Shown piece after piece: positions 3,255 through 29,803 of a stretch of DNA of 64,000 bases. Source of the stretch: an uncultured Treponema sp. Its GTDB lineage: Bacteria; Spirochaetota; Spirochaetia; Treponematales; Treponemataceae. Position numbers and translations under genes: made by a program. Each line of letters starts with the position of its first letter. Positions within the stretch are counted from its first letter, which is position 1. The notes under the pieces are model-generated. The model was not told the origin of the DNA. It worked only from the letters and a program-made list of their open reading frames with translations, and did no database searches. The DNA is taken from the NCBI RefSeq assembly GCF_946187725.1, contig NZ_CAMHSK010000011.1:1-64000 (forward strand), read 5' to 3'.

Positions 3255-5072
3255 ATGGGATTCGACATCACAACGAACAATACAGAGACTGACCCGCAGA
3301 TTTTGCTGTCTCAGTTTTTCAAGACTTTCGATAATTTTTCTGATGACGAAAAAGCGCGTTTCACCTCGGCATGGGATTTTCTTTGCAAAAAGACCGATGG
3401 CATCAAACGAAACTGCGGACTCCCCTACATTCTCCATCCAATGCGTGTTGCCGCAATCCTCGCCGAAGCACAAATGGACATTGACTGCCTCATTTCCGGC
3501 CTGCTCCACTCAATTTTTGAAGTTGACGGCATTTCCGAAGCAGAAGTCAAGGCACAGTTCGGAGACACGGTTTTCAAAATCGTAAAAGACACTTCCAAAA
3601 TCACGGGCATGAAAATCAATGCGACCACAATCGCACAGGCGGATTCAATCCGAAAAATGCTGTTTGCGATGATTGATGATGTCCGCGTCATTCTTGTCAA
3701 ACTCGCAGACCGTCTCGACCGAATGCGAAACCTCAAATCAATCGAAGAAAAAAAGCAAAGGCTCGTCTCATCCGAAGTCATAGACATCTGGGCACCGCTT
3801 GCCGACCGGCTTGGTATGCAGAGCGTCAAATCCGAACTTGAAGATTTGAGCCTCAAATACTCTAACCCCGATGTCTTCCAGCAGATTAAGGCAATTGTCG
3901 CACAAAAAAAAGACGAACGGGCCGCTTACCTCGAAAAAGCAGTCAACGCAATCTACAAGTCTTCCGAAAAGCTCGGAATCAAAGTCAGCATCTCAAGCCG
4001 CGCAAAGCATTTCTATTCAATCTACAAAAAAATGCAGAAAAGGAATGTTCCTGCATCCTCTCTCTATGATTTGCTCGCACTGCGCATAATCTGCCAGACA
4101 AACGCTGAATGTTACACATTGATTGGAATCGTTCACGGTCTATGGAAGCCAATGGACGGCCGTTTTAAAGATTACATTGCCATGCCAAAAGCAAACGGAT
4201 ATCAATCGCTGCACACCACGGTTGTTTGCGAAGGAAAGCCGCTTGAAATCCAAATCAGAACGAGCGAAATGCACAACATGGCAGAACACGGTGTCGCTTC
4301 GCACTGGCTCTACAAAAAGGGCATGAATCATGACAAAGTTGATGTCAATTCACTCGGAATCTTCAATCAGCTGCAGAATCTCAAAAACGAAGATTTGAGC
4401 AACGAGAATTTCTTTGCAGAGCTCAAGGGCGAACTTTTGGGCGATGAAATTTATGTCTTCACTCCAAAAGGCGATGTAATTCAGCTGCCACAGGGAAGCA
4501 ATGCAATCGACTTCGCATATCATGTTCACTCAGCAGTTGGCGAAAAAATCGTCGGTGCAAAAGCTGACGGAAAAATCATCCCGATTACAACCCCGCTCAA
4601 AAACACTCAGATTATCGAAATCATCACGAATCCGCAGGCTCACCCTACAGAAAATCAGCTCAAGGTCGTAAAAACAAGCAAGGCTCGTCAGCGAATCCAT
4701 TCATGGCTTCTGTCAAACGACCCGACCTTTGAAGACAAGGCAGCCGCAGAACAGCGTGCACGAGATTTGGACGCTCAAAACGAGAGAAGCCGTGCCATCC
4801 AGGAAGAAAAACGCAAAAAACGCTCCGCAAAAGGCACAAATCCCGACTACGCCGAAAAAAGCCTCTACACCGGTAAAATCACCGTCGAAAATACAAAAAA
4901 TGTCGTCTACACGCTGGCCGGATGCTGCAATCCTCAGCCCGGTGACCCAATCGTAGGCTACATGAACAAAAACAAAGGCCTCAAAGTCCACAAAGCGACC
5001 TGCATGACCTTCCAGCGCATTCCGAACATCGAAAACCGAATGATTGAAGTGACCTGGGAAAAAAAGATTTAA
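3255..5072 (+). CDS. rel: Rel-type (p)ppGpp synthetase with degenerate hydrolase domain
   Basis: Makes the stringent-response alarmone (p)ppGpp. I chose ATG 3255 (605 residues) because GGGAG precedes it; the track's earlier start lacks one. Order: HD domain (about 50-170), synthetase (about 230-380), TGS (about 395-460) and a C-terminal Cys-containing segment (GCCNPQPGDP). The family's terminal ACT domain is absent, so it is shorter than usual (about 740). The synthetase keeps RFKDYIAMPKANGYQSLHTT and EIQIRTSEMH, with the RxKD loop typical of bifunctional Rel enzymes. In the HD domain the usual HDxxED motif reads HSIFEV, and the Asn in the later ADRLxNM motif is Arg. Hydrolysis is therefore probably lost. 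A TTTCAA-N17-TATCTT promoter precedes it. Confidence 0.88.
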   Translation: MGFDITTNNTETDPQILLSQFFKTFDNFSDDEKARFTSAWDFLCKKTDGIKRNCGLPYILHPMRVAAILAEAQMDIDCLISGLLHSIFEVDGISEAEVKAQFGDTVFKIVKDTSKITGMKINATTIAQADSIRKMLFAMIDDVRVILVKLADRLDRMRNLKSIEEKKQRLVSSEVIDIWAPLADRLGMQSVKSELEDLSLKYSNPDVFQQIKAIVAQKKDERAAYLEKAVNAIYKSSEKLGIKVSISSRAKHFYSIYKKMQKRNVPASSLYDLLALRIICQTNAECYTLIGIVHGLWKPMDGRFKDYIAMPKANGYQSLHTTVVCEGKPLEIQIRTSEMHNMAEHGVASHWLYKKGMNHDKVDVNSLGIFNQLQNLKNEDLSNENFFAELKGELLGDEIYVFTPKGDVIQLPQGSNAIDFAYHVHSAVGEKIVGAKADGKIIPITTPLKNTQIIEIITNPQAHPTENQLKVVKTSKARQRIHSWLLSNDPTFEDKAAAEQRARDLDAQNERSRAIQEEKRKKRSAKGTNPDYAEKSLYTGKITVENTKNVVYTLAGCCNPQPGDPIVGYMNKNKGLKVHKATCMTFQRIPNIENRMIEVTWEKKI

Positions 5073-5088
5073 CAAACCACCGTCTCAT

Positions 5089-5143
5089 ACCCATTGACCA
5101 ACTAGGCAATTCCCGTTAATATAAACCTATCAAGGTACTAGGT
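5089..5143 (+). promoter_or_regulatory. nifB promoter with two Rrf2-type operators
   Basis: The promoter is TTGACC (5094-5099), 17 bases, TAATAT (5117-5122). Two dyads of the form ACCTA-N9-TAGGT are present. The first (5089-5107) reads ACCCA-N9-TAGGC and encloses the -35 box. The second (5125-5143) reads ACCTA-N9-TAGGT exactly and covers the expected start of transcription. The two are 36 bases apart. The same layout occurs at 21744 and 28304 and, with 40-base spacing, at 15162. Confidence 0.75.
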
Positions 5144-5165
5144 ATTATATTAAAAGGAAACAGTT

Positions 5166-6038
5166 ATGGCATTGGACGAACAGACAATCTACCGCGAGCA
5201 TCCGTGCTTCGGGCCGCACAAACACAATAAAGGGCGAATTCATCTGCCGGTCGCACCTGGCTGCAACATCGAATGCCGCTTCTGCGACAGAAAAATTAAT
5301 GAGAGCGAGAACAGGCCGGGCGTTACAAGCACCGTAATCAAACCCGAAGAAGCCTGTGAATATATCCGCCGCGCACTCGAACGATGCCCGGAGCTTACAG
5401 TAGTTGGAATCGCGGGACCGGGCGACACACTTGCCACAAATTACGCGCTTGAAACATTCCGGCTCGTCAAAAAAGAATTTCCTCAGCTTATCCGCTGTAT
5501 GAGCACCAACGGACTCTTGCTTTCAGAGCGTGCCGAAGAACTGATTGAAGTCGGAATTGACACGCTCACGGTTACAGTCAATGCCGTAGAACCAGAAATC
5601 GAAGCTCAGCTCAACAACAGAATTATTTATCACGGAAAGATTTACACAGGAGTTGAGGCAGCAGAAATTCTGATTCACAATCAGCTGGAAGGAATCAGAA
5701 AAGTCGCCGATTCAGGAATGCTGATTAAAGTGAACACAGTCCTCTGCCCCGGAATCAACGACAAACATATAGAAGAAATCGCCTACACCGTAAAAGATGC
5801 GGGCGCACACATTTACAACATCATTCCGCTGATTCCGCAGAACGAGCTAAAACACCTCGAAGCCCCGACATTCAAGCAGCTCGATGATGCCCGAAAAGCC
5901 GCTTACCCGTACATCAATATTTTCACCCACTGTGCGCATTGCCGAGCCGACGCAATCGGAGTGCCGGGCGAGTACGACATCGGAAGCGAAATCTACATGG
6001 GGCGTGTGAACACGAAGGAGACCTTCAGCCACGGGTGA
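5166..6038 (+). CDS. nifB: NifB-like radical SAM cofactor-synthesis protein
   Basis: A 290-residue radical SAM enzyme of the NifB family, which builds the Fe8S9C core (NifB-co) of nitrogenase-type cofactors using S-adenosylmethionine. The CxxxCxxC motif is at residues 33-40 (CNIECRFC). The family's accessory cysteines are present near the N terminus (HPCFG) and in the C-terminal HCAHCRADAIG motif. It lacks the NifX-like domain fused to many NifB proteins; a separate NifX-like gene lies at 15237. Its promoter carries the same paired operators as the nitrogenase-like operon 10 kb away, so I infer it serves the D/K proteins there. AAAGG precedes the ATG. Confidence 0.9.
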   Translation: MALDEQTIYREHPCFGPHKHNKGRIHLPVAPGCNIECRFCDRKINESENRPGVTSTVIKPEEACEYIRRALERCPELTVVGIAGPGDTLATNYALETFRLVKKEFPQLIRCMSTNGLLLSERAEELIEVGIDTLTVTVNAVEPEIEAQLNNRIIYHGKIYTGVEAAEILIHNQLEGIRKVADSGMLIKVNTVLCPGINDKHIEEIAYTVKDAGAHIYNIIPLIPQNELKHLEAPTFKQLDDARKAAYPYINIFTHCAHCRADAIGVPGEYDIGSEIYMGRVNTKETFSHG

Positions 6039-6093
6039 TTTTCAGCATACGCGCAGCAATGGACATTGCCGGTCAGACATTATATGATAAATC

Positions 6094-7125
6094 ATGCTGT
6101 CATTTGAAAGTGATTATATCGAAGGTGCACACCCGCTGATTTTGGATGCACTCATTAAAAGTAATATGGAACAACTTTCCGGTTATGGTGCAGACAAATA
6201 CACAGAATCGGCAAAGAAAAAACTCGCCGACCTTTGCGGATTGCCGGACTGTCAGATTCAGTTTTTGACTGGAGGAACGCAGACCAATCAGATTGTAATT
6301 GATACTATGCTCCGCCAGTTTGAGGGAGTTGTTGCCGCACAAACGGGTCATGTGAGCGTTCATGAAGCCGGCGCAATTGAATACACTGGCAGAAAAGTCC
6401 TTACGCTGCCATCACATGACGGAAAGATGAAGGCAGACGAACTAGCTTCTTTCATTTCTGATTTTTATGCTGACGGCAACTGCGAGCATATGGTTTTTCC
6501 AGGAATGGTTTACATCTCGCATCCAACTGAATACGGAACGCTTTACTCATTGAAAGAACTTGAAGAACTGAGCGCCGTATGCCAGAAAAACAAGATTCCG
6601 CTTTTTATGGACGGTGCACGACTGGCCTATGCCCTTGCAAGTCACAGCACGGATGTAACTTTAAAAGATATCGCCAGACTTTGTGATGTCTTTTATGTTG
6701 GCGGAACTAAAGCAGGTGCTCTATGCGGTGAAGCAGTCGTTTTTACGCGAAACAATATGCCACTTCATTTCGAGCATCTTGTAAAAAAACATGGCGCACT
6801 TTTGGCAAAAGGCCGACTTCTGGGAATTCAATTCGATACGCTATTCACAGATGATTTGTACCTCAAACTTGGAAAAAATGCCATCGACCGTGCCGAAGAG
6901 CTAAAATCGCTGTTTAAAGAAAAAGGATTCCACTTTTACCTGGATTCGCCCACAAACCAGCAATTCATAATCCTCGAAAACGCACAGATTGAAACCCTCA
7001 AAGCAAAAGTCAAGTTCAGTTTCTGGGAAAAATACGATGACACCCACTCAGTAGTACGCTTTGCAACCAGCTGGGCAACCACAACAGAAAAAATCGCAAT
7101 GCTGCGAGAGATTCTTTCGGAATAA
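6094..7125 (+). CDS. Low-specificity threonine aldolase family enzyme (PLP)
   Basis: A 343-residue fold-type I PLP enzyme of the beta-eliminating lyase/threonine aldolase family, which splits L-threonine or allo-threonine to glycine and acetaldehyde. The conserved GGTQTNQ (cofactor phosphate region), HEAGAIE, DGARLAYAL (Asp-Gly-Ala-Arg) and YVGGTKAG (Schiff-base lysine) are visible. Length is typical of the family. No clear ribosome site precedes the ATG, and a -10-like TATGAT lies only five bases upstream, so a leaderless start is possible. It ends just before the bidirectional terminator shared with the tracrRNA. Confidence 0.87.
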   Translation: MLSFESDYIEGAHPLILDALIKSNMEQLSGYGADKYTESAKKKLADLCGLPDCQIQFLTGGTQTNQIVIDTMLRQFEGVVAAQTGHVSVHEAGAIEYTGRKVLTLPSHDGKMKADELASFISDFYADGNCEHMVFPGMVYISHPTEYGTLYSLKELEELSAVCQKNKIPLFMDGARLAYALASHSTDVTLKDIARLCDVFYVGGTKAGALCGEAVVFTRNNMPLHFEHLVKKHGALLAKGRLLGIQFDTLFTDDLYLKLGKNAIDRAEELKSLFKEKGFHFYLDSPTNQQFIILENAQIETLKAKVKFSFWEKYDDTHSVVRFATSWATTTEKIAMLREILSE

Positions 7126-7129
7126 AAAA

Positions 7130-7251
7130 CAAAAAGAGAGCCGTAGCTCCCTTTTTTCATTTGTTCTGTTTATATTCAAAAAGAATATAAAAGCATTTTG
7201 CGGAGTCAAAAGACTCCTTGTTAGCAGGTTGACCGGATAAATTAATCAGTA
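7130..7251 (-). ncRNA. tracrRNA of the type II-C CRISPR system
   Basis: On the minus strand a near-copy of the repeat complement (CTGATTAATTTATCCGGTCA, then ACCTGCTAAC) forms the anti-repeat at the 5' end. It differs from the perfect complement by one substitution, an extra T and a diverged 5' end. After it come a stem GGAGTC-TTTT-GACTCC, a stem TTTATATTC-TTTTT-GAATATAAA and the terminator GGGAGC-TAC-GGCTCTC with a T-run. A consensus promoter lies just upstream, so the start should be near 7250 and the RNA about 120 nt. It pairs with crRNA made from the minus strand of the array and is required for Cas9 loading. Confidence 0.88.
7131..7157. terminator. Bidirectional terminator (threonine aldolase / tracrRNA)
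   Basis: GAGAGCCGTAGCTCCC forms a six-pair stem with a three-base loop. It is flanked by a T-run on the plus strand (7152-7157) and an A-run on the other side, giving T-runs in both directions. It should end the aldolase mRNA on plus and the tracrRNA on minus. Confidence 0.8.
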
Positions 7252-7256
7252 ATTTC

Positions 7257-7285
7257 ATAATATTGCATCAAACTTTTTATGTCAA
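7257..7285 (-). promoter_or_regulatory. tracrRNA promoter
   Basis: Read on the minus strand, TTGACA (7280-7285) is followed after 17 bases by TATTAT (7257-7262). This near-consensus sigma-70 promoter places the start at the anti-repeat. It lies next to the oppositely directed cas9 promoter. Confidence 0.8.
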
Positions 7286-7291
7286 ATTATT

Positions 7292-7320
7292 TTTACATAT
7301 TCTCTTAATCATGATACAAT
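7292..7320 (+). promoter_or_regulatory. cas9 promoter, probably giving a leaderless mRNA
   Basis: TTTACA (7292-7297), 17 bases, TACAAT (7315-7320), then six T and the ATG at 7327. The expected start of transcription coincides with the A of the ATG. No ribosome site is present, which fits leaderless translation. Confidence 0.65.
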
Positions 7321-7326
7321 TTTTTT

Positions 7327-10300
7327 ATGAAATATCGATTGGGGCTCGATTTAGGTACAAATTCTATTGGTTGGGCTGTGTATTCTTTGGATAATCAGAA
7401 TACACCTTTGAATCTTGAAGATATGGGTGTCCGTATTTTTTCAGACGGGCGGGATCCAAAAACGAAAGAACCTCTGGCCGTTGCGCGAAGAATCGCCAGA
7501 GGGCAACGAAAAATAATCTATAGAAGAAAACTTCGTCGAAAAGCAACTTTCAGACTTTTACAAGAACAAGGCTTGTTCCCAAAAACAAAAGAAGAAACTC
7601 AAAAATTAAAGTCGTTAAATCCTTATGAGCTTCGTATCAAAGCATTAGATGAAAAACTAGAACCATCTGAACTTGCTCGTGTTCTATTTAATCTTTCTGT
7701 CCGTAGAGGCTTTAAAAGCAACCGAAAAGATACTGAGAATAACGAGCAAGAAACTTCAAATTCAAAAGAAAAACTATCTCAAAAGGATATGTGCACAGAA
7801 CTTGCAAATGCAATAAAGGACTCTGGCTGCCGAACTATCGGCGAATTCTTGTGGAAAAATCAGAATCAAAATCATGGTATAAGATTTGTTCCTGGAAGAA
7901 TGAAATACTATCCTCTTCGACAAATGTATATTGATGAATTCAATGCAATTCACTCAGTTCAAGAACAATTCTTCAAAAATATTAAGTGGGATGAAATCTA
8001 TAATGCAATTTTCTTTCAACGCCCATTAAAAGCACAAGAAAGAGGCCGTTGTCAATACATTCCAGAAAACGAAAGAACCTTCAAAGCTCTTCCTTGTGCT
8101 CAAAAACTTAGAATTCTGCAAGAAGTAAGAAATTTAAATTATCAGAATGCAGAAGGAAAAACTCTTCCGATTTCGAATGTGAGTAAACTTTCTCTTTTTT
8201 CCGAATCAGGCGAAGATACTCTCTTAAAACTCTTGGATACAAAAGAAAAAGTTACTTTTGATGCATTCCGAAAAGCACTGGGGCTTAGTCCTGCCTGTAC
8301 ATTTAATCTCGAACGAGGCGGAAGAACTTTCTTGCAGGGAAATACCACAGCTGTAAAAATGAGGAGCAAAAATCGATTTGGTTCTTTGTGGGATACACTT
8401 TCGCTTGAGGAACAGGATTTTATCGTTGAAAAATTGATAACGGCAGATGAGGATTCTGAAATTCTTGAGACTCTCGAAAAATACAGTCTTACAGATGAAC
8501 AAAAAGATTCCATATTAAAATTGCAACTTCAAACTGGTACTACGATGCTTTGTAAAGAAGTTTCCGAAAAACTTGTTCATAAAATGGAATCTGATAGCGC
8601 CGATACATACACGGTTGCTGTTGAATCTTTGGGATATAAATATGCTGACCAAACTGTGGAAAAGTGTGATGAATTGCCATATTACGGAAAAGTCCTTGTC
8701 GGCTCAACAATGGGCTCTGATCCGTCTGCTGATGAAAGCAAGCCTGAGAAAAAATATGGAAAAATCAGCAACCCCACTGTTCATGTATCTTTGAATCAGA
8801 CTCGGGTTGTCGTCAACGCTCTTATCAAACAGTACGGAAAGCCCGCTCAGATAGCCCTTGAACTTTCACGAGATTTAAAGGCAAGCCGGGAAGCAAAAGA
8901 GGCGATTCAGAAAAAGCAGAACGAAAACAAAAAGCGAAATGAAATCACAAATAAAAACATTCGTGATGCAAATCCAAATATTCCTTATCCCAACCGCAAC
9001 GACCGCTTAAAGTGGCGCTTGTGGGAAGAACTTGGAGCAGAAGGGCTTCCACGAAAATGTCTTTATTGCGGAAAGAATATATCCGGTGGGGAACTGTTCA
9101 GCAAGAACATTGAAATTGAGCATATTCTGCCATACAGCCGAACCTTGCTTGACGCAGAGTCGAATCTGACTGTGGCACATGCAAGCTGCAATGCCTTTAA
9201 AAAAGAGCGTTCTCCCTACGAAGCTTTTGGCACAAATCCCAAGGGCTTTAATTGGGAAGAAATTCTTATGCGGGCAAACCAACTGAAAAATCCTGCCAAG
9301 CGCAGGCGTTTTGCCGTAGATGCAATGGAGACTTTTGAAAAAGACAGCGGATTTATTGCCCGACAACTGACGGATAATGCCTATCTTTCAAAAATGGCAA
9401 TGAAATACCTGAAGTCTGTCTGCGACGATATCTGGTCGGTAAACGGCGGAATGACAAAATTGCTTCGTGACAAATGGGAAATTGATTCTATTTTAAAGCG
9501 TAAAATAGATGACAGGGAAATTGCCCATTTTGAATTAAAAGAAGAGCAAATCGGTGAATACAAAAAGAACCGCTATGACCACCGCCACCATGCTTTGGAT
9601 GCTTCTGTAATTGCCTTGATTGACCGTTCGCTTGTAAAGGAAATTTCTACGCTTAATGCTCGCTCACAAAACCACAGAATTGAAGTTCCGCCAATGGCTG
9701 TTCCTAGACTGGAATTGCAGGAAAAAGTGAAAAATATTGTTGTAAGCTTTAAGCCTGACCACGGTGCGGAAGGAAAACTTTCAAAAGAGACTTTGCTTGG
9801 CAAAATCAAGCGTGAAGAATTGCTGGAAATTTCAAAAATTGAGGAGGCGGACATTCCTCTTATAAAAAGTGATAAAGTCCGTAAGGATTTTGAGGAAAAA
9901 TTTGCAGAAACAAAGGACATCAAGCAAGTCCGAAAAGAATTTAAGGATGTCTATCCGCAGATAAAAGTTTTCAAAGAATATTTTGTTGTCCGTACAGCGG
10001 TAATGAGTTTGAAAGAAAACAACATTGAGGACATTGTTGATAATAAAATTCGAACGAAACTGCAAGAATTTATTGTGCTCCACAAGGGTGAAAAATTTGA
10101 AGATGTTTTGGAGCGATTCAGCGAACAGACTAGAATAAAAAAAGTCCGCTGTTTGAATCGTGACCAAAATCCAATTGTTATTAAAGGCTGTGTTCCCCGA
10201 TACTATGAAACTAAAGATTATTGTGCAGCTATAATTTGGAAAACCCCTCCCAAAAAAGAAGGGGCAAAACCGACTTTTGAAGCACAATATTTCCTTAGGA

Positions 10301-10668
10301 CGGAAATCGATAAAAACAACAAACCAAAAAAAGAAATAATAGAAGCATGGAAAAAGCAACACCATCCAGCTGCAAAACGTTTACCATTTCTTTTACACAA
10401 AGATGATTATTTGGAATTCTGCGATGGCGGGAAATGGTATAAGTGTAGAATAGCAGGATTGCAAGCTGCTGCGAATAGATTTGATATACGTCCAATTTTT
10501 TCGGTTACCGATTGTAAAGACTGGATAATTGCTACTGAAGAAAACCAACTGGAAGGATATTGGAAGCCGCAAAAAGGTCAGAATTACATCTCCGTCAATG
10601 TCCTCTTTGGCGAAAAAGAGGCAAGATTCATCACGGTAAATCCAATCGGCCGTGTATTCAGAAAATAA
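7327..10668 (+). CDS. cas9: Cas9, type II-C RNA-guided DNA nuclease
   Basis: A 1113-residue compact Cas9. RuvC-I is GLDLGTNSIGWAVY with Asp8. The arginine-rich bridge helix lies at about 51-78 (VARRIARGQRKIIYRRKLRR). RuvC-II is IALELSRDLK with Glu512. The HNH domain holds two cysteine pairs around CLYCG and IEHILPYSRTLLDAESN with His599. RuvC-III is DHRHHALDASVIAL with Asp758. The rest forms the wedge and PAM-interacting region. All catalytic residues seem intact. Size, and the presence of only cas1 and cas2 without csn2 or cas4, place it in subtype II-C. It is guided by crRNA:tracrRNA pairs. The PAM cannot be read from the sequence. Confidence 0.97.
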   Translation: MKYRLGLDLGTNSIGWAVYSLDNQNTPLNLEDMGVRIFSDGRDPKTKEPLAVARRIARGQRKIIYRRKLRRKATFRLLQEQGLFPKTKEETQKLKSLNPYELRIKALDEKLEPSELARVLFNLSVRRGFKSNRKDTENNEQETSNSKEKLSQKDMCTELANAIKDSGCRTIGEFLWKNQNQNHGIRFVPGRMKYYPLRQMYIDEFNAIHSVQEQFFKNIKWDEIYNAIFFQRPLKAQERGRCQYIPENERTFKALPCAQKLRILQEVRNLNYQNAEGKTLPISNVSKLSLFSESGEDTLLKLLDTKEKVTFDAFRKALGLSPACTFNLERGGRTFLQGNTTAVKMRSKNRFGSLWDTLSLEEQDFIVEKLITADEDSEILETLEKYSLTDEQKDSILKLQLQTGTTMLCKEVSEKLVHKMESDSADTYTVAVESLGYKYADQTVEKCDELPYYGKVLVGSTMGSDPSADESKPEKKYGKISNPTVHVSLNQTRVVVNALIKQYGKPAQIALELSRDLKASREAKEAIQKKQNENKKRNEITNKNIRDANPNIPYPNRNDRLKWRLWEELGAEGLPRKCLYCGKNISGGELFSKNIEIEHILPYSRTLLDAESNLTVAHASCNAFKKERSPYEAFGTNPKGFNWEEILMRANQLKNPAKRRRFAVDAMETFEKDSGFIARQLTDNAYLSKMAMKYLKSVCDDIWSVNGGMTKLLRDKWEIDSILKRKIDDREIAHFELKEEQIGEYKKNRYDHRHHALDASVIALIDRSLVKEISTLNARSQNHRIEVPPMAVPRLELQEKVKNIVVSFKPDHGAEGKLSKETLLGKIKREELLEISKIEEADIPLIKSDKVRKDFEEKFAETKDIKQVRKEFKDVYPQIKVFKEYFVVRTAVMSLKENNIEDIVDNKIRTKLQEFIVLHKGEKFEDVLERFSEQTRIKKVRCLNRDQNPIVIKGCVPRYYETKDYCAAIIWKTPPKKEGAKPTFEAQYFLRTEIDKNNKPKKEIIEAWKKQHHPAAKRLPFLLHKDDYLEFCDGGKWYKCRIAGLQAAANRFDIRPIFSVTDCKDWIIATEENQLEGYWKPQKGQNYISVNVLFGEKEARFITVNPIGRVFRK

Positions 10669-10675
10669 TGGCTAA

Positions 10676-10716
10676 CTCTGTTCAGTATGCCGATATTTAA
10701 AATATGCTGAACAGAG
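10676..10716 (+). other. Hairpin enclosing the cas1 start codon
   Basis: CTCTGTTCAGTAT (10676-10688) pairs with ATGCTGAACAGAG (10704-10716) across a 15-base loop with one wobble. The first ATG of the right arm is the cas1 start codon. With no ribosome site before cas1, this structure could restrict cas1 translation in the cas9-cas1 transcript. Confidence 0.6.
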
Positions 10717-11624
10717 TTTTAGAGATTTATGAAGAAAATCGATATCTGTCTCTCAGTCGTGGCTTTATCGTCATACAGCATGGTTCAGAAGAACTGGGGC
10801 GTGTTCCTCTTGACGATATAGGCGTACTCTTACTTTCAGCTCAAAGCGTAACATTCTCCAAAAACATATTAAATGCTCTTGCAGAGCGAGGCTGCGTTAC
10901 CGTCCTCTGTGGCAAAAACTATTCACCGCAAAGTATGGTTCTTCCTGTCTACTCACATTATCTTTTTGCAAAAATCCTGAAAAAACAGATTGATGCTTCT
11001 TTACCTCTTAAAAAAAGAATATGGCAGCAGATTGTTATCCAAAAAATTAAGAATCAGGCCTTGAATTTAAAACTTTGTGGCAAGGAAGAAGAATCAAAAC
11101 GGATTGAAACCATAGCGGCTCTGGTAAAGTCAGGAGACCCCGACAATCGTGAAGCATACGCGGCCAGAATGTACTGGAAATATTTGTTCGGAAAAGATTT
11201 TACAAGAGATAAAGAAAAGGAAGGAATAAATTCTTTTTTGAATTATGGCTATGCAATCATGCGCTCCTCTATGGCACGGGCAGTTTGTGCCAGCGGACTT
11301 CTTCCTTCCCTTGGTCTTCATCACGACAATCATCTTAATCAGTTTTGTCTTGCGGACGATTTATTTGAGATTTACCGTCCTTTAGTTGACTGTGTAGTAT
11401 TTCATCTTGGAATAAAAGATGATTCTGAGTTAACTCCCGAATATAAAACTAAACTTACAGAAACACTATGGATAAAGGTTCATACTTCGGAAGGCAATTC
11501 CCCTGCATTTCAGAGTATGCAATATCTGACGGCTTCTTATGTTCACGCATTGGAAGATGGAAAACCTGTCATTGATTTGCCTGTATGGGCAGGAGATGAA
11601 TATGGCAATGCCAGAACTGAATAG
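10704..11624 (+). CDS. cas1: Cas1, type II CRISPR integrase
   Basis: A 306-residue Cas1, the metal-dependent integrase that with Cas2 inserts new spacers. The catalytic triad is visible as Glu in NREAYAARMYW, His in LGLHHDNHLNQF and Asp in LADDLFEIYRPLVD. The N-terminal beta-domain begins MLNRVLEIYEENRYLSLSRG. It follows cas9 by 35 bases and overlaps cas2, so the three genes probably form one operon. The start codon sits within a hairpin stem and lacks a clear ribosome site. Confidence 0.96.
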   Translation: MLNRVLEIYEENRYLSLSRGFIVIQHGSEELGRVPLDDIGVLLLSAQSVTFSKNILNALAERGCVTVLCGKNYSPQSMVLPVYSHYLFAKILKKQIDASLPLKKRIWQQIVIQKIKNQALNLKLCGKEEESKRIETIAALVKSGDPDNREAYAARMYWKYLFGKDFTRDKEKEGINSFLNYGYAIMRSSMARAVCASGLLPSLGLHHDNHLNQFCLADDLFEIYRPLVDCVVFHLGIKDDSELTPEYKTKLTETLWIKVHTSEGNSPAFQSMQYLTASYVHALEDGKPVIDLPVWAGDEYGNARTE

Positions 11625-11937
11625 GTATGAGCTTATGTGGATGCTTGTTTTATTTGATTTACCTGTGGTTGAGAAGAAAGAGCGCAAAGCAGCAACAGAT
11701 TTCAGAAATTTTTTGCTCGATCACGGATTTGCAATGGTGCAATATTCAATTTATACTAAGCTTTTTTCCGGTAAGGATGCTTGTGAAAAATATTATCGCC
11801 TGATAAAGCAAAACTTGCCGGAAGAAGGTAAAGTTGATATTATCACGATAACGGATAAGCAATATGAAAACATTATCAGTTATTCATCCTGTAAAAAAAT
11901 CGAAAAAAAAGAGCCTCAACAACTGCTTTTATTCTAG
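11602..11937 (+). CDS. cas2: Cas2, CRISPR adaptation protein
   Basis: I chose ATG 11602 (111 residues) instead of the track's 11539 because AGGAG lies just before it and the N terminus then matches Cas2. The ferredoxin-like fold starts MLVLFDLPVVEKKERKAATD, with the conserved Asp in FDLP, followed by FRNFLLDHGFAMVQYSIY. It overlaps the end of cas1 by 23 bases, suggesting translational coupling. It forms the scaffold of the Cas1-Cas2 integration complex. The array begins 69 bases downstream, read from the other strand. Confidence 0.94.
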   Translation: MAMPELNRYELMWMLVLFDLPVVEKKERKAATDFRNFLLDHGFAMVQYSIYTKLFSGKDACEKYYRLIKQNLPEEGKVDIITITDKQYENIISYSSCKKIEKKEPQQLLLF

Positions 11938-11946
11938 TTTTCCCTC

Positions 11947-12007
11947 AAAAAAAATACGTCCGATGCACTCTATTTCTTTATATAAAATAGAATTACATCG
12001 GATGTAT
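11947..12007 (-). terminator. Strong minus-strand terminator at the cas2-side end of the CRISPR array
   Basis: Arms at 11954-11975 and 11985-12007 pair over about 22 positions with a few mismatches and a nine-base loop. On the minus strand the hairpin is followed by eight T (A-run 11947-11954). No T-run follows on the plus strand. One arm overlaps the first two bases of repeat 1. It should end pre-crRNA transcription before it runs into the cas genes. Confidence 0.75.
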
Positions 12008-13602
12008 TATAACTGATTAATTTGTCCGGTCAACCTGCAACATATTCATACCGCAAGCGTTACACATTTCAATTATAACTGATTAATTTGTCCGGTCAAC
12101 CTGCAACCTTTTCAGCCTGCTGGATAACGGCATTCGAATTATAACTGATTAATTTGTCCGGTCAACCTGCAACGCTTTTGAGCCTCAAAGGCTTATTCCT
12201 TTGATTATAACTGATTAATTTGTCCGGTCAACCTGCAACGCCTTTGTTTTAGTATGGCTTGCTGTAATAATTATAACTGATTAATTTGTCCGGTCAACCT
12301 GCAACGACTGGAGTCATAATATTGAAGTAGATTTTTATTATAACTGATTAATTTGTCCGGTCAACCTGCAACATACAGATTCTCTTTATACAATATTTGT
12401 GAATTATAACTGATTAATTTGTCCGGTCAACCTGCAACCACTTTTAATTGTCCAAATCGTAACAATGAATTATAACTGATTAATTTGTCCGGTCAACCTG
12501 CAACCTTGCGAGCGTTGCTTCAAGAATCGGAAGCATTATAACTGATTAATTTGTCCGGTCAACCTGCAACAAAGGCTACTACAAGGGGGTTGTAGACGCT
12601 ATTATAACTGATTAATTTGTCCGGTCAACCTGCAACCCGCCGTGGCCGTTGGGCGTTCCGAATTAAATTATAACTGATTAATTTGTCCGGTCAACCTGCA
12701 ACTTTTTTGACTATTGGTTACTAGATGAACGGATTATAACTGATTAATTTGTCCGGTCAACCTGCAACAATGGTAACGACCTTTGTCGGGCTTTTGCTAT
12801 TATAACTGATTAATTTGTCCGGTCAACCTGCAACGTAGGAATCGGCACTAACTCACTGTTGATTATTATAACTGATTAATTTGTCCGGTCAACCTGCAAC
12901 ATCTATTTGGGAGATGAGAACGGCACCGTAATTATAACTGATTAATTTGTCCGGTCAACCTGCAACAATTTTTTTTATCGGGTATAACAAAGACTGATTA
13001 TAACTGATTAATTTGTCCGGTCAACCTGCAACCGGGAATGTAATATTATTGTCCAACATTGTATTATAACTGATTAATTTGTCCGGTCAACCTGCAACGG
13101 CAAACATCACACAGAATACACATTATTTATTATAACTGATTAATTTGTCCGGTCAACCTGCAACCTTCACGTTGATGAGGGGGAACGGCTTTGAATTATA
13201 ACTGATTAATTTGTCCGGTCAACCTGCAACATTTCTGGTTCTGATGTCTCAAAGCGTATTATTATAACTGATTAATTTGTCCGGTCAACCTGCAACATAG
13301 CGGTCGGTGGTCAGTGGGCAAAAAGAATTATAACTGATTAATTTGTCCGGTCAACCTGCAACGATTTGTCAACTCTTGAAGCAGATGCGGCAATTATAAC
13401 TGATTAATTTGTCCGGTCAACCTGCAACAAAGTTGCAACGTTTACTCCAAATATGATTATTATAACTGATTAATTTGTCCGGTCAACCTGCAACTCGCCG
13501 CGGTCGTTGGGCCTTTCGCATAAATTATAACTGATTAATTTGTCCGGTCAACCTGCAACGGAATCAAGGTAAAGACGGCACTGCTTGGCATTATAACTGT
13601 TT
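12006..13602 (-). CRISPR. Type II-C CRISPR array, 24 intact repeats plus one degenerate, 24 spacers
   Basis: Twenty-four identical 36-base repeats start at 12006 and end at 13559. A 25th at 13590 keeps only the first ten bases (ATTATAACTG on plus). Spacers are 30 bases, except one of 31 (12306-12336) and one of 29 (13495-13523). In crRNA sense (minus strand) the repeat begins GTTGCAGGTTGACCGG and ends CAGTTATAAT, matching the tracrRNA anti-repeat. Within each repeat TTGACC and TATAAT are 16 bases apart, a near-consensus promoter firing into the next spacer. The degenerate repeat lies at the end away from cas2, so integration probably occurs at the cas2 side. Confidence 0.98.
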
Positions 13603-13705
13603 TATTTATTCAAATTTCCCCATTCCCGAAGTCTTTCCAACAGACTTGGTAGATTTCTGACTGCTTGCGCTTTCTCGCTCTTTCAAAGGTTTTTTTAACC
13701 ACCAA

Positions 13706-18734: not shown

Positions 18735-21686
18735 CTATTTTGCTAATTTTTCGTAAAGCTTAAATAATTCTCCGACTATTTCCGATTCTGTGATGTCAGG
18801 GGGAAATCCGTAGGCCGCTATTACAGCCTTGTCGTTGGCTTGGTGGGCTTTTCGCAATTCTTGGGGCATGAAAGTCTCATCGTATAAATCTGCGAGCGTA
18901 CTGTCGGGGAAGTTTGCGCGGGTATCCAAAATTGCCTGTGCGGTTTGTTCGATTTTTGCTTTCTGCTCGGCTGTTGGATTGCACCAAACAAAATTGTTGT
19001 AGACAATATCATTTGAGTAACGATAATCGCTTTTCAATCTTCCGCAAACTACACGCATCCATGCGTTATGAATAGAACTTGTAAGTATACCAAATTCATA
19101 TAAACTTGCATTTGGAACAATTTGTACAGCATCACTTGCAATTATATCGGATGAAACATACCCTATTGGAATATAACTACGTTTTTCTGACGAGACTCGA
19201 GGAATCAAGAGATAATTTCCACTTTCGGGCTGACGGTTCTCGGTAAACAGATATGGATATGCGGCCCAATTCTGAGTTGATTCTTTGGAACTTGAAAGCC
19301 GCATTTCTTTTACAGCGGCTACTCTTTGTGCTACAAGTGACATTTTGCGTAATTCGGCAGGACTTGCATTTACGAGCCATAGGCAATATCGTTTTTTCCC
19401 ATTTATGAATTCTTCTGCTCCTAAAAACTCTCGGATAAATTTTTTTGCAGCAGGTTCCTTTTTTATGAATTCGTCGTATTCTTCCGCTTCAATTATAAGA
19501 TTGCCACCATCTGTAGGCTGGCTTCCTTTGTTAATTTTAGAAACTTTGCAAAGCGGATTCTTTCTTTTTTCAACAAAAACATTCGGTGCATCAATTAAGT
19601 AAGGAGAGATATTACTTGCTATAGTCTTATTTCCATTCTCATCGAAGATAATTTTTTCCTTTTGATTGCTGTTTTTGTCACTGAATCCAAGAATTACACA
19701 ATGAACATGAGCTTTTTGAGAGCTTTCAGAATCCCAAACAAATGTTTTATATGCAAAATCAAATTGAATATTGTTTTCCTCAAAAAGTGGCTTCCATACT
19801 TCTGCGACTTGCTCACCTTGAATAATCGAGTTTGTAGAAACAAAAGCGCATTTTGTCTGACTTCCATGAATAAGTCTGCTTGCTTTAATATACCACCCGA
19901 CAACATAATCGATATTTTTCCCAATGTTTTTTACAACAAGTGCCAAGTCTTTCTTTTGCTGTTCAGATTGGAATGCATATCCAACAAAAGGGGGATTCCC
20001 GATGATGTAATCATAAACAATAGGCTTTGAAATTGATTTTGTATGGTCTATTTTGAACTCGACTTCTTTTGCAACTACATTAAGTTCTTTAAAATACTTC
20101 TGTGATAAGGCAGATTCTTCAATTTCTGAATCATGGATTTCAATCGTTGCCCCAGATAAATCTTTGTAAATGTTGAGCTTTTCGGCATAAAGAGCGTTAA
20201 GTTTCTGATTCTGCGAAAGTGTCGCCCAGTCAAGCTGCAGTGCGTTTCCTTCAATGATATTAGCACCTGTTTTGAGTGGTAGAAAATCAATTGTCTGACT
20301 CAAAATTGCCTCGGTTTCTGCAACCATCTGGCTTTCCGCAATCCACAAGGCGGTTTTTGCGACTGTTACGGCAAAATCGTTTATTTCAATTCCATAGAAC
20401 TGGTTGATGTGAACTTTGATAAATTCATCGAATCCTAATTTTTTGTGGCCTTCGTTAAGGATTGAAAGAACTTTGTTTTCAAGCCGTCGGAGCGAAAGAT
20501 ATGTTTCTGTCAAAAAGTTTCCGGAGCCACATGCTGGGTCAAGAAATTTGAGTGAGCCGAGTTTTTCTTGAAAATCATAAAGTTTATCGATTTTTTGCTT
20601 GGCCGCTTTTGTCGCGCAAATCTGTTCAAACTCAGAATTTAACTCGTCCATAAAGAGCGGGTCGATTACCTTGTGAATGTTCTGAATCGAAGTGTAGTGC
20701 ATTCCGCCCTTTCGGCGTGTGTCTGGATTCAATGTACTTTCAAAAACTGCACCAAAAATTGTTGGGGAAATCTCTGACCAGTTGAACGGAGCGCAGTGAT
20801 TTACGATAACATCGACAATCTCTTGTGTGAAATTTGGAATTTCAATCTTTTCATCTCGGAATAATCCGCCGTTCACATAGGGGAAAGGCTTTAGTTTGAG
20901 GTCGTATTTGTCTCGGTCTGAAAGTTTTGTATCGAGACTCTTGAAAAGCTTGATGATTCCGTCACGCAGATTTTCAATGGCAAATGATTTTATATAATCT
21001 TCAAAAGAACTTTTGGTTTCAAAAAGCCCCGCATCTTCGGCATAAAGGCAAAAAACGATTCTGACGCAGAGAATGTTGAGTGAACGAAGACTGTTTTCTT
21101 CTGGTTCAATGTACTCTTTGTATAAAGCATCGTAAAGTTTTCCTACAAGTTCTCCAGCTTTTAAAGAAATTTCTTCTTCACGACGGATATTCTCGTTTTT
21201 TGTGTCCGAAAGAAATTGCAGACGATAAAAATCTTTTTCCAAGTCTTTCAAGAAAATCTGCTCTGGCTCGCCGCTTGGATTTTCCATGTCATACACAAGA
21301 AATTCATCAAAATTGCAAGTAACAATCCACTTTGGATGCTGGCTCAAAGGCAAGTCTGCAACATATTTTTTTGCCTGTTGGTATGGAGTGAGAAAAGATC
21401 CATCGCTCTGCTTGATAGGTTCACGCAAGTCCTTGTGGCTTGACTTTTGCTCAATCATAACTCGGGTGGAAGGAATATAGGCATCGATAAAATTCGTGAT
21501 TGTTTTGTTCTGAATCTTGTCTTTTACCTGCTCTTCAAAGAAGATGAAATTCGCAATGTCTGCCACACCGAACACGCAAGTCAGAAGGTCAATCCAAAAT
21601 TTCTGGGATTCGCCTTTTTCGTAGCCGTGTCCAAGCCAGTTTTCCGCGAACTTTTTAGCATTCTTTGTTTGTTCTGCCCTTGTCAT
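18735..21686 (-). CDS. MmeI-like type II restriction-modification enzyme (nuclease plus N6-adenine methylase)
   Basis: A 983-residue single-chain enzyme. The N-terminal nuclease has a PD-(D/E)xK pattern (Asp68, then IEQKSSH with Glu79 and Lys81). A helical spacer follows. The methylase domain contains motif I LDPACGSGNFL (about 384) and motif IV NPPFVGY (about 564), typical of N6-adenine methylation. The C-terminal part should hold the target-recognition region. MmeI-type enzymes modify one strand and cut about 20 bases away. No separate specificity or restriction gene is nearby, as expected. TATAAT lies six bases before ATG with no ribosome site, so it may be leaderless. Recognition sequence unknown. 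Confidence 0.88.
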   Translation of the reverse strand: MTRAEQTKNAKKFAENWLGHGYEKGESQKFWIDLLTCVFGVADIANFIFFEEQVKDKIQNKTITNFIDAYIPSTRVMIEQKSSHKDLREPIKQSDGSFLTPYQQAKKYVADLPLSQHPKWIVTCNFDEFLVYDMENPSGEPEQIFLKDLEKDFYRLQFLSDTKNENIRREEEISLKAGELVGKLYDALYKEYIEPEENSLRSLNILCVRIVFCLYAEDAGLFETKSSFEDYIKSFAIENLRDGIIKLFKSLDTKLSDRDKYDLKLKPFPYVNGGLFRDEKIEIPNFTQEIVDVIVNHCAPFNWSEISPTIFGAVFESTLNPDTRRKGGMHYTSIQNIHKVIDPLFMDELNSEFEQICATKAAKQKIDKLYDFQEKLGSLKFLDPACGSGNFLTETYLSLRRLENKVLSILNEGHKKLGFDEFIKVHINQFYGIEINDFAVTVAKTALWIAESQMVAETEAILSQTIDFLPLKTGANIIEGNALQLDWATLSQNQKLNALYAEKLNIYKDLSGATIEIHDSEIEESALSQKYFKELNVVAKEVEFKIDHTKSISKPIVYDYIIGNPPFVGYAFQSEQQKKDLALVVKNIGKNIDYVVGWYIKASRLIHGSQTKCAFVSTNSIIQGEQVAEVWKPLFEENNIQFDFAYKTFVWDSESSQKAHVHCVILGFSDKNSNQKEKIIFDENGNKTIASNISPYLIDAPNVFVEKRKNPLCKVSKINKGSQPTDGGNLIIEAEEYDEFIKKEPAAKKFIREFLGAEEFINGKKRYCLWLVNASPAELRKMSLVAQRVAAVKEMRLSSSKESTQNWAAYPYLFTENRQPESGNYLLIPRVSSEKRSYIPIGYVSSDIIASDAVQIVPNASLYEFGILTSSIHNAWMRVVCGRLKSDYRYSNDIVYNNFVWCNPTAEQKAKIEQTAQAILDTRANFPDSTLADLYDETFMPQELRKAHQANDKAVIAAYGFPPDITESEIVGELFKLYEKLAK

Positions 21687-28372: not shown

Positions 28373-29803
28373 ATGGCAGAAAATGTACTTTTCAGTGACT
28401 ACTCTGCTTCCGATTACATAAAATTTGCGGAACAGAGCGCGGCATGGATAAAATCCACAAAGCAGGCAGGAAAATTCGGTGCACGATGGATTCAAAGCCC
28501 GGATTCAAAAGAAGATTTTACTGATTACCCGATGCTCACACCGAAATCCCTTTACGGTGGCTCAGCTGGAGTCGGACTTTTTTACCTTCGATTATATCAG
28601 TCGACAAAAAATGCTGAATATCTTGAGGAAGCAAAATCAGCGGCAAAAGAGATAATCGAAACCGATGAAGGGGCGGCTTTTTACGAGCGGACTTTGAATG
28701 CAAAGGCAAGCGGGGCTTCAAAACTTGTTCATGTAAAAAATATGCCTGGCTGGGCTGCAGGATACTACAACGGTCCTACTGGAAGTGCATATCTCGTGCT
28801 CAAACTTTATGAACTTACAGGTGATGAATCTTACAAAAACTATGCCGTCAAAGTTGCTGATGATTTGCTTGCGGCTGCAAAAAAATCTGATGCTGGCATT
28901 TACTGGAGCGAACAGAATGATTTGTGCGGCGATGCAGGATTCGTGACCTATCTTTCTGCAATCTACGAGCTTACAAAAGATTCAAAATATCTTGATGCAG
29001 AAAAAAGTTTCGGGAACTTCCTTTTGAGCAAAGGAAAACCTGCTCCAAAGGGCGGAACTTACTGGAATGTAGTTGATTTGACAATCATCGACTTTCCGAA
29101 AGATGTTTTCTGGGTAAATAATGCTCACGGAACAAGCGGAATCGGCTGGATTTTCACGATTCTTTACAAAACGACAAAAGACGAAAGATTTTTGAACGCG
29201 GCAAAAGAAGCTGCAAAATATATCGAAGGAATTGCGGTCGGTGACGAAAATGCTGTTCTTGTTCCATATCTCGACAGTTTGGAACGCGGTCCATCAACTG
29301 AGTTCTATTATCTGAGCACATGCCACGGACCTGCAGGAACTTCACTGCTCTTCCATGCGCTTTATAAAATCACCAGCGAAAAGCATTATCTGGATTGGGT
29401 TTTGAGGCTGAGCCGTGGAATCATTAAGGCGGGTGCACCGGAGAATTTCAGCCGCGGTTACTGGCAGAGTCAGGCTTTGTGCTGCGGAACTCCGGGCTTG
29501 CTTGAACATTTCGTTTCGGTTTACAAGCTCACGAAAAATCAGGAATTCCTTGAATATGCTAAACGGGCGGCAAAAACTGTTGTTGGGCAGTCATTTGTTC
29601 CTGATGCAGACGGTGATATTTATCATCAGAAAGCATTGCGAAGATGGAGCGGTGCATGGTGGCGAACGATTCCGACCGATGTTCACTCTTACACAGGTCT
29701 TTACATCGGAACGGCAGGAAACGCATGGTCGCTTCTTTCACTTGCGGCAGCCGAAAAGAACGAAAATCTTATCGAGCTGATTGAATACAACTATTTTAAC
29801 TAA
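28373..29803 (+). CDS. LanC-like (lanthionine synthetase C-type) protein
   Basis: A 476-residue alpha/alpha-barrel protein with six-hairpin repeats: GGSAGVG (about 65), NGPTGSAYLVL, AHGTSGIGW (about 250), CHGPAGTSLL (about 317), CCGTPGLLEHF (about 369) and YIGTAGNAWSLL. LanC enzymes bind zinc through Cys, Cys and His and add cysteine thiols to dehydroamino acids. Here the last Cys-His pair appears as Cys-Cys, so metal ligation may be altered. No LanB/LanM dehydratase or precursor peptide lies nearby. It starts an operator-controlled operon with a cysteine synthase, suggesting a thiol-addition role in sulfur metabolism. Function is not established. Confidence 0.72.
   Translation: MAENVLFSDYSASDYIKFAEQSAAWIKSTKQAGKFGARWIQSPDSKEDFTDYPMLTPKSLYGGSAGVGLFYLRLYQSTKNAEYLEEAKSAAKEIIETDEGAAFYERTLNAKASGASKLVHVKNMPGWAAGYYNGPTGSAYLVLKLYELTGDESYKNYAVKVADDLLAAAKKSDAGIYWSEQNDLCGDAGFVTYLSAIYELTKDSKYLDAEKSFGNFLLSKGKPAPKGGTYWNVVDLTIIDFPKDVFWVNNAHGTSGIGWIFTILYKTTKDERFLNAAKEAAKYIEGIAVGDENAVLVPYLDSLERGPSTEFYYLSTCHGPAGTSLLFHALYKITSEKHYLDWVLRLSRGIIKAGAPENFSRGYWQSQALCCGTPGLLEHFVSVYKLTKNQEFLEYAKRAAKTVVGQSFVPDADGDIYHQKALRRWSGAWWRTIPTDVHSYTGLYIGTAGNAWSLLSLAAAEKNENLIELIEYNYFN

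Follow-up and report, generated by a model that had tools for sequence, protein, structure and literature searches.

The window analysed here is a 64,000-nt stretch of contig NZ_CAMHSK010000011.1 from an uncultured Treponema species, and it carries a cas9-cas1-cas2 operon together with a CRISPR array (Table 1). The Cas9 retains both HNH and RuvC domains, and its nearest solved relatives belong to the NmeCas9 size class. The Cas2 profile begins at residue 33 of the cas2 reading frame, so the true start of the gene probably lies near 11605-11635. Genes for a radical SAM protein and a beta-eliminating lyase flank the operon upstream and NUDIX and PNPOx genes downstream; neither csn2 (II-A) nor cas4 (II-B) is present in the operon or among these neighbours. 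Since cas9, cas1 and cas2 stand without an adjacent csn2 or cas4, the system is, by its gene content, a type II-C CRISPR-Cas9. The host genome is that of a spirochaete: it yields three matches to the periplasmic-flagellum family FlaA, which is missing from 14 control genomes. Elsewhere in the window, a 983-aa protein (18735-21686) with weak similarity to the BREX methyltransferase PglX, well below curated cut-offs, is possibly a restriction-modification or defence enzyme, and the similarity of a 476-aa protein (28373-29803) to LanM/LanL lanthipeptide synthetases is confined to their C-terminal, cyclase-like part.

The region of the tracrRNA has a fold z-score of -4.6 on the minus strand and of +0.6 on the plus strand. 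A minus-strand tracrRNA implies that the crRNA would likewise be read from the minus strand, which places the PAM-side end of each spacer at its left end in the window. The system resembles the type II-C systems of Neisseria meningitidis and Campylobacter jejuni in its three-gene operon, its 36-nt repeats and spacers of about 30 nt, the apparent transcription of tracrRNA and crRNA against the direction of the cas operon, and a PAM located 3' of the protospacer.

Table 1. Features of the CRISPR-Cas locus and of a microvirus provirus in a same-genus genome. Positions are those of the window unless a contig is named.
Feature	Position	Strand	Description
tracrRNA	7128-7256	-	Anti-repeat 7220-7253, then hairpins and a terminator-like stem; ends approximate
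cas9	7327-10668	+	1113 aa; TIGR01865, E 1.9e-165; PDB 6jdq, E 1.5e-58
cas1, type II	10704-11624	+	TIGR03639 cas1_NMENI, E 1.2e-83
cas2 ORF	11539-11937	+	TIGR01573, E 3.9e-19
CRISPR array	12006-13589		24 exact 36-nt repeats and 24 spacers of 29-31 nt
Spacer 8	12505-12534	+	Exact 30/30 protospacer in Mu-like phage contigs L200, L205 and L206; PAM GAAGTC
Spacer 10	12637-12666	+	30 nt; RRGRWAFRI from base 2
Spacer 18	13165-13194	+	Protospacer (28/30) in a tailed-prophage capsid gene of sister genomes; PAM GGAATC
Spacer 23	13495-13523	+	29 nt; RRGRWAFRI from base 2, seven third-position differences from spacer 10
Degenerate partial repeat	13590-13607		Far end of array
Microvirus provirus, G050	L078:978-7550		On 480-kb contig C13; capsid F, HUH Rep, pilot protein

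The repeat unit of the array is ATTATAACTGATTAATTTGTCCGGTCAACCTGCAAC, and all its copies are identical. The initial annotation had drawn attention to spacers 10 and 23 as encoding one peptide from their second base; their positions and common reading are confirmed, and the seven or more wobble differences it counted are exactly seven, all in third codon positions. At zero offset the two spacers are identical in 22 of 29 positions. The mismatches, at positions 1, 7, 10, 19, 22, 25 and 28, fall on third positions in seven cases out of seven: six lie within the nine codons of RRGRWAFRI, and the remaining one is at the wobble base of the codon just before them. When seven changes were placed at random, the peptide was preserved in only 16 of 200,000 simulations. 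The next-best spacer pair within the array reaches 17/27 identity, and the homologous arrays of the genus contain no other divergent, near-identical pair within one array. The left, PAM-side ends of both spacers occupy the same codon register. This common register and the restriction of the differences to silent positions strongly support the earlier interpretation that the two spacers were acquired separately, from homologous genes at one site. The shared PAM placement claimed alongside it holds in that both spacers begin at the same codon position on the PAM side, whereas their own flanks were not located.

The search for the peptide and its protospacers envisaged in the initial annotation found no protospacer for either spacer, and the PAM was obtained from the protospacers of other spacers. 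The protospacer of spacer 8 lies in a Mu-type transposase gene in the three IMG/VR contigs L200, L205 and L206, and the sister array G065 has two spacers that match these same phages exactly. With exact spacer matches from two species of the genus, these contigs (L200 at 4778-7728) are probably phages of this genus. On the crRNA-3' side, the flanks at four tailed or Mu-like targets read GAAGTC, GGAATC, AGAATC and GGAATC, while the opposite flank is not conserved. Two microvirus capsid near-sites of spacer 1 of G045, a genome whose Cas9 is 85% identical to that of the window, are flanked by CCAATC and GTAATC. The four targets gave NRARTC, which was loosened to NNARTC upon addition of the capsid near-sites; the consensus thus stands on six sites, a small sample. 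It differs from the PAMs of the N. meningitidis and C. jejuni systems, and makes a PAM available for this group of Cas9 proteins.

Searches of IMG/VR, INPHARED, the species-genome collection and 200 genomes of the same genus gave no exact or near-exact protospacer for spacer 10 or spacer 23, and spacer 10 has none in plasmid records; blastn of both spacers against phages, and of spacer 10 against plasmids, returned chance-level matches only. Exact RRGRWAFRI is absent from IMG/VR and from the same-genus genomes, and its few matches in the species genomes are at chance level, as are the matches of one-residue-shorter peptide patterns in IMG/VR and the species genomes. The peptide resembles the zinc-motif region near the N-terminus of VP4, the replication initiator of Microviridae. 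Pattern scans led to 4-5-kb contigs, many with terminal repeats, which encode a protein of about 300 aa carrying CGKCxxCxxxRxxxWAFRI and RPHYH and assigned to PHROG 942 / REP_ORF2-G2P; the R...WAFRI motif was also found in a few other open reading frames. A VP4 profile was then built from microviruses gathered by another motif, independently of the RRGRWAFRI-like segment. Against this profile the peptide scores p ~0.0003 (null of random 30-mers from non-microvirus phages), a value not fully corrected for the choice of family, as the family was picked from this resemblance before the test. The peptide fits the conserved segment C-x2-C-x3-R-x3-W-[AS]-F-R and agrees at all the positions found near-invariant in 80 VP4s, namely the Arg four residues before the Trp, the Trp itself, the Phe and the Arg. 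VP4s in INPHARED come close with KRRGDWSFRL and NRRSDWAFRL.

At the nucleotide level, the closest VP4 site matches the pair at 21/30. In the exact register of the pair, all four PAM bases occur in 1 of 111 distinct VP4 sites, and three of the four in only 3-4%. The single site with a perfect PAM belongs to the G442 provirus, from the same bacterial family, a coincidence with a chance of about 3% for four spirochaete VP4s. Two further spacers of the array were considered as microvirus-derived and rejected: spacer 8 (CERCFKNRK) scores p ~0.002 as a third VP4 spacer, which its exact Mu-like protospacers rule out, and spacer 12 (NGNDLCRAFA), as a counterpart of the capsid motif INDLRRAF, scores p 0.01-0.06 and breaks invariant residues. 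Because the same profile misled on spacer 8, the assignment of the pair to the zinc-motif region of VP4 is probable but unproven. The origin of the pair in related phages, as stated in the initial annotation, is likely, and a Microviridae replication initiator can be proposed as the source.

The two acquisitions at one homologous site might instead have come from a tailed phage, a plasmid or another mobile element, a reading that we consider rather unlikely. Spacers 8 and 18 of the same array do target Mu-like or tailed phages, and the pair has no known exact protospacer in VP4; however, neither RRGRWAFRI nor RGRWAFRI has a convincing match in the tailed-phage genes of IMG/VR, and the VP4 profile fit, the strand and the context of the genus favour microviruses. 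Self-derived spacers sometimes occur in CRISPR arrays, but derivation from a gene family of the host is very improbable here, as a degenerate form of the peptide pattern finds only the two spacers in the host's own 3.27-Mb genome and has no other match across 200 same-genus genomes. Duplication of one spacer within the array, followed by drift of one copy, is more improbable still. Spacer duplication does take place, the same 29-nt spacer being present twice, as spacers 21 and 24, in the G145 array (L260). Drift would nevertheless have had to introduce seven silent-only changes in 29 bases while leaving all the repeats of the array unchanged, and nothing would confine it to third positions; with letter-perfect repeats and untranslated spacers, it is excluded in practice. 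Chance coincidence, even with many spacer pairs and frames under comparison, has a negligible probability: identity of at least 22/29 is expected at ~6e-8 for one pair and ~4e-4 over all pairs, strands and offsets, to be multiplied by ~2e-4 for the placement of all seven mismatches at third positions.

It is likely, then, that spacers 10 and 23 record two events at one PAM-anchored site in silently diverged related phages, most likely in the VP4/Rep gene of Microviridae. The type II-C host would have acquired them from related phages on two occasions, both uptakes falling at the identical PAM-anchored position of one conserved gene. This gene would be the rolling-circle replication initiator, and the site its segment C-x2-C-x3-R-x3-W-[AS]-F-R-[IL] upstream of the HUH nuclease motif. 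The crRNAs of the two spacers would pair with the coding, or virion, strand of the phage, and the second spacer may have brought a benefit, since the first would be weakened by silent changes at PAM-proximal positions 1, 7 and 10. Two independently acquired spacers on one protospacer are reported from a laboratory study of a Legionella type I-C system (PMC5071653). The pair described here resembles that case in the repeated, independent capture of one protospacer site, but there a single plasmid sequence was sampled in the laboratory, and here two silently diverged homologues were sampled in nature. For CRISPR biology the single pair is a neat but ordinary event. As a trace left in nature, it cleanly documents that one host lineage met homologous versions of one phage gene on at least two occasions.

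The wider pattern in the genus is more interesting than the pair itself. We scored 298 distinct spacers, taken from homologous arrays of about 20 same-genus genomes, against VP4 and capsid profiles, using a separate null for each strand. At the 1% level, 19 spacers match on the array strand and a single one on the opposite strand, with 3 expected on each; at the 0.1% level the counts are 11 and 0. Column-reversed decoy profiles give 2 against 2, and a null taken from the window itself gives 18 against 1. The matches include RPHYH spacers in G171 and G188 and CGEYG in G161; capsid motifs among them are GYIMGIMII (G045), DYFLSALP (G171) and HLSEQAVYN (G065). Since the profile sees conserved sites only, apparent hot spots partly reflect what it can detect. 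Near-protospacers at the nucleotide level were found in faecal microviruses, at 27/30 in the Rep gene of Dulem virus 253 and at 26/30 in a microvirus capsid gene; the peptide pattern for the G045 capsid spacer has no match in IMG/VR. Spacers 1 and 19 of the G045 array (L254) read YSPEFAHLGE and, more weakly, MNPSFQHLSE at one capsid site in the same register, and are a possible second case of the pattern seen in spacers 10 and 23. Arrays of the genus are clearly aimed at microvirus Rep and capsid genes, and the substantial share of spacers directed at these ssDNA phages is a further difference from the N. meningitidis and C. jejuni systems.

Microvirus proviruses are present in spirochaete genomes. 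The provirus of the same-genus genome G050 (Table 1) matches Phage_F (E 1.9e-46) and REP_ORF2-G2P (E 7.6e-17), and is flanked by 31-nt direct repeats (ACTTCCTATAACGCGCATTCTGT...) 6,542 bp apart, which resemble dif sites. Its relatives are microviruses of 5.7-6.6 kb, mostly from rodent, tortoise and pig faeces. VP4 genes were found in three further spirochaete genomes, from the same family, the same order and the same class. An FtsW/RodA-like gene adjoins the proviruses of two spirochaete genera (L274:1-3810 in G442; L078:7891-9228), and may mark an integration site common to both. In a 2022 survey, Kirchberger et al. (PMC9239249) met Spirochaetes as a host once, on one contig of a fragmented assembly, and set the case aside as a possible binning error; in a lemur virome study Treponema is among the iPHoP host predictions (PMC11281440). 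Our use of spacers to tie microviruses to bacterial hosts is akin to the CRISPR-based assignments of these studies (PMC9239249, PMC11281440). Here, unlike in the single case of the survey (PMC9239249), three lines agree: arrays from several sister species, a provirus bounded by repeats and a common PAM. Spirochaetes are thus credible hosts of Microviridae, and the link, drawn from spacers in several sister species together with proviruses and a PAM, is better evidenced than before.

Almost all microvirus-like spacers of the genus are sense on the array strand, so that their crRNAs would pair with the coding strand. In Microviridae the coding strand is the virion strand. PAM availability accounts for a strand ratio of only 1.2-1.7 to 1, against the 19 to 1 observed at the 1% level, although the more distant Cas9 proteins of the genus (58-64% identical) may have different PAMs that contribute to the ratio. 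The few tailed-phage targets (n=4) lack this bias, with two sense and two antisense. The asymmetry may stem from selection of guides that act on ssDNA or mRNA, or from strand-biased capture. Cas9 proteins of types II-A and II-C are able to cut ssRNA (PMC5796797), whereas Cas12a confers no detectable immunity via ssDNA (PMC9226536), which by analogy counts against a role for ssDNA. We only tentatively suggest that the type II-C system of the genus is biased, by acquisition or by selection, towards guides complementary to the virion/coding strand of ssDNA microviruses. If this were true, Cas9 would act on the incoming single-stranded genome or on transcripts, or spacer capture during rolling-circle replication would favour one strand, and the action of the system would not be symmetric on the double-stranded replicative form. 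The asymmetry makes it testable whether Cas9 immunity to ssDNA phages uses their single-stranded stage.
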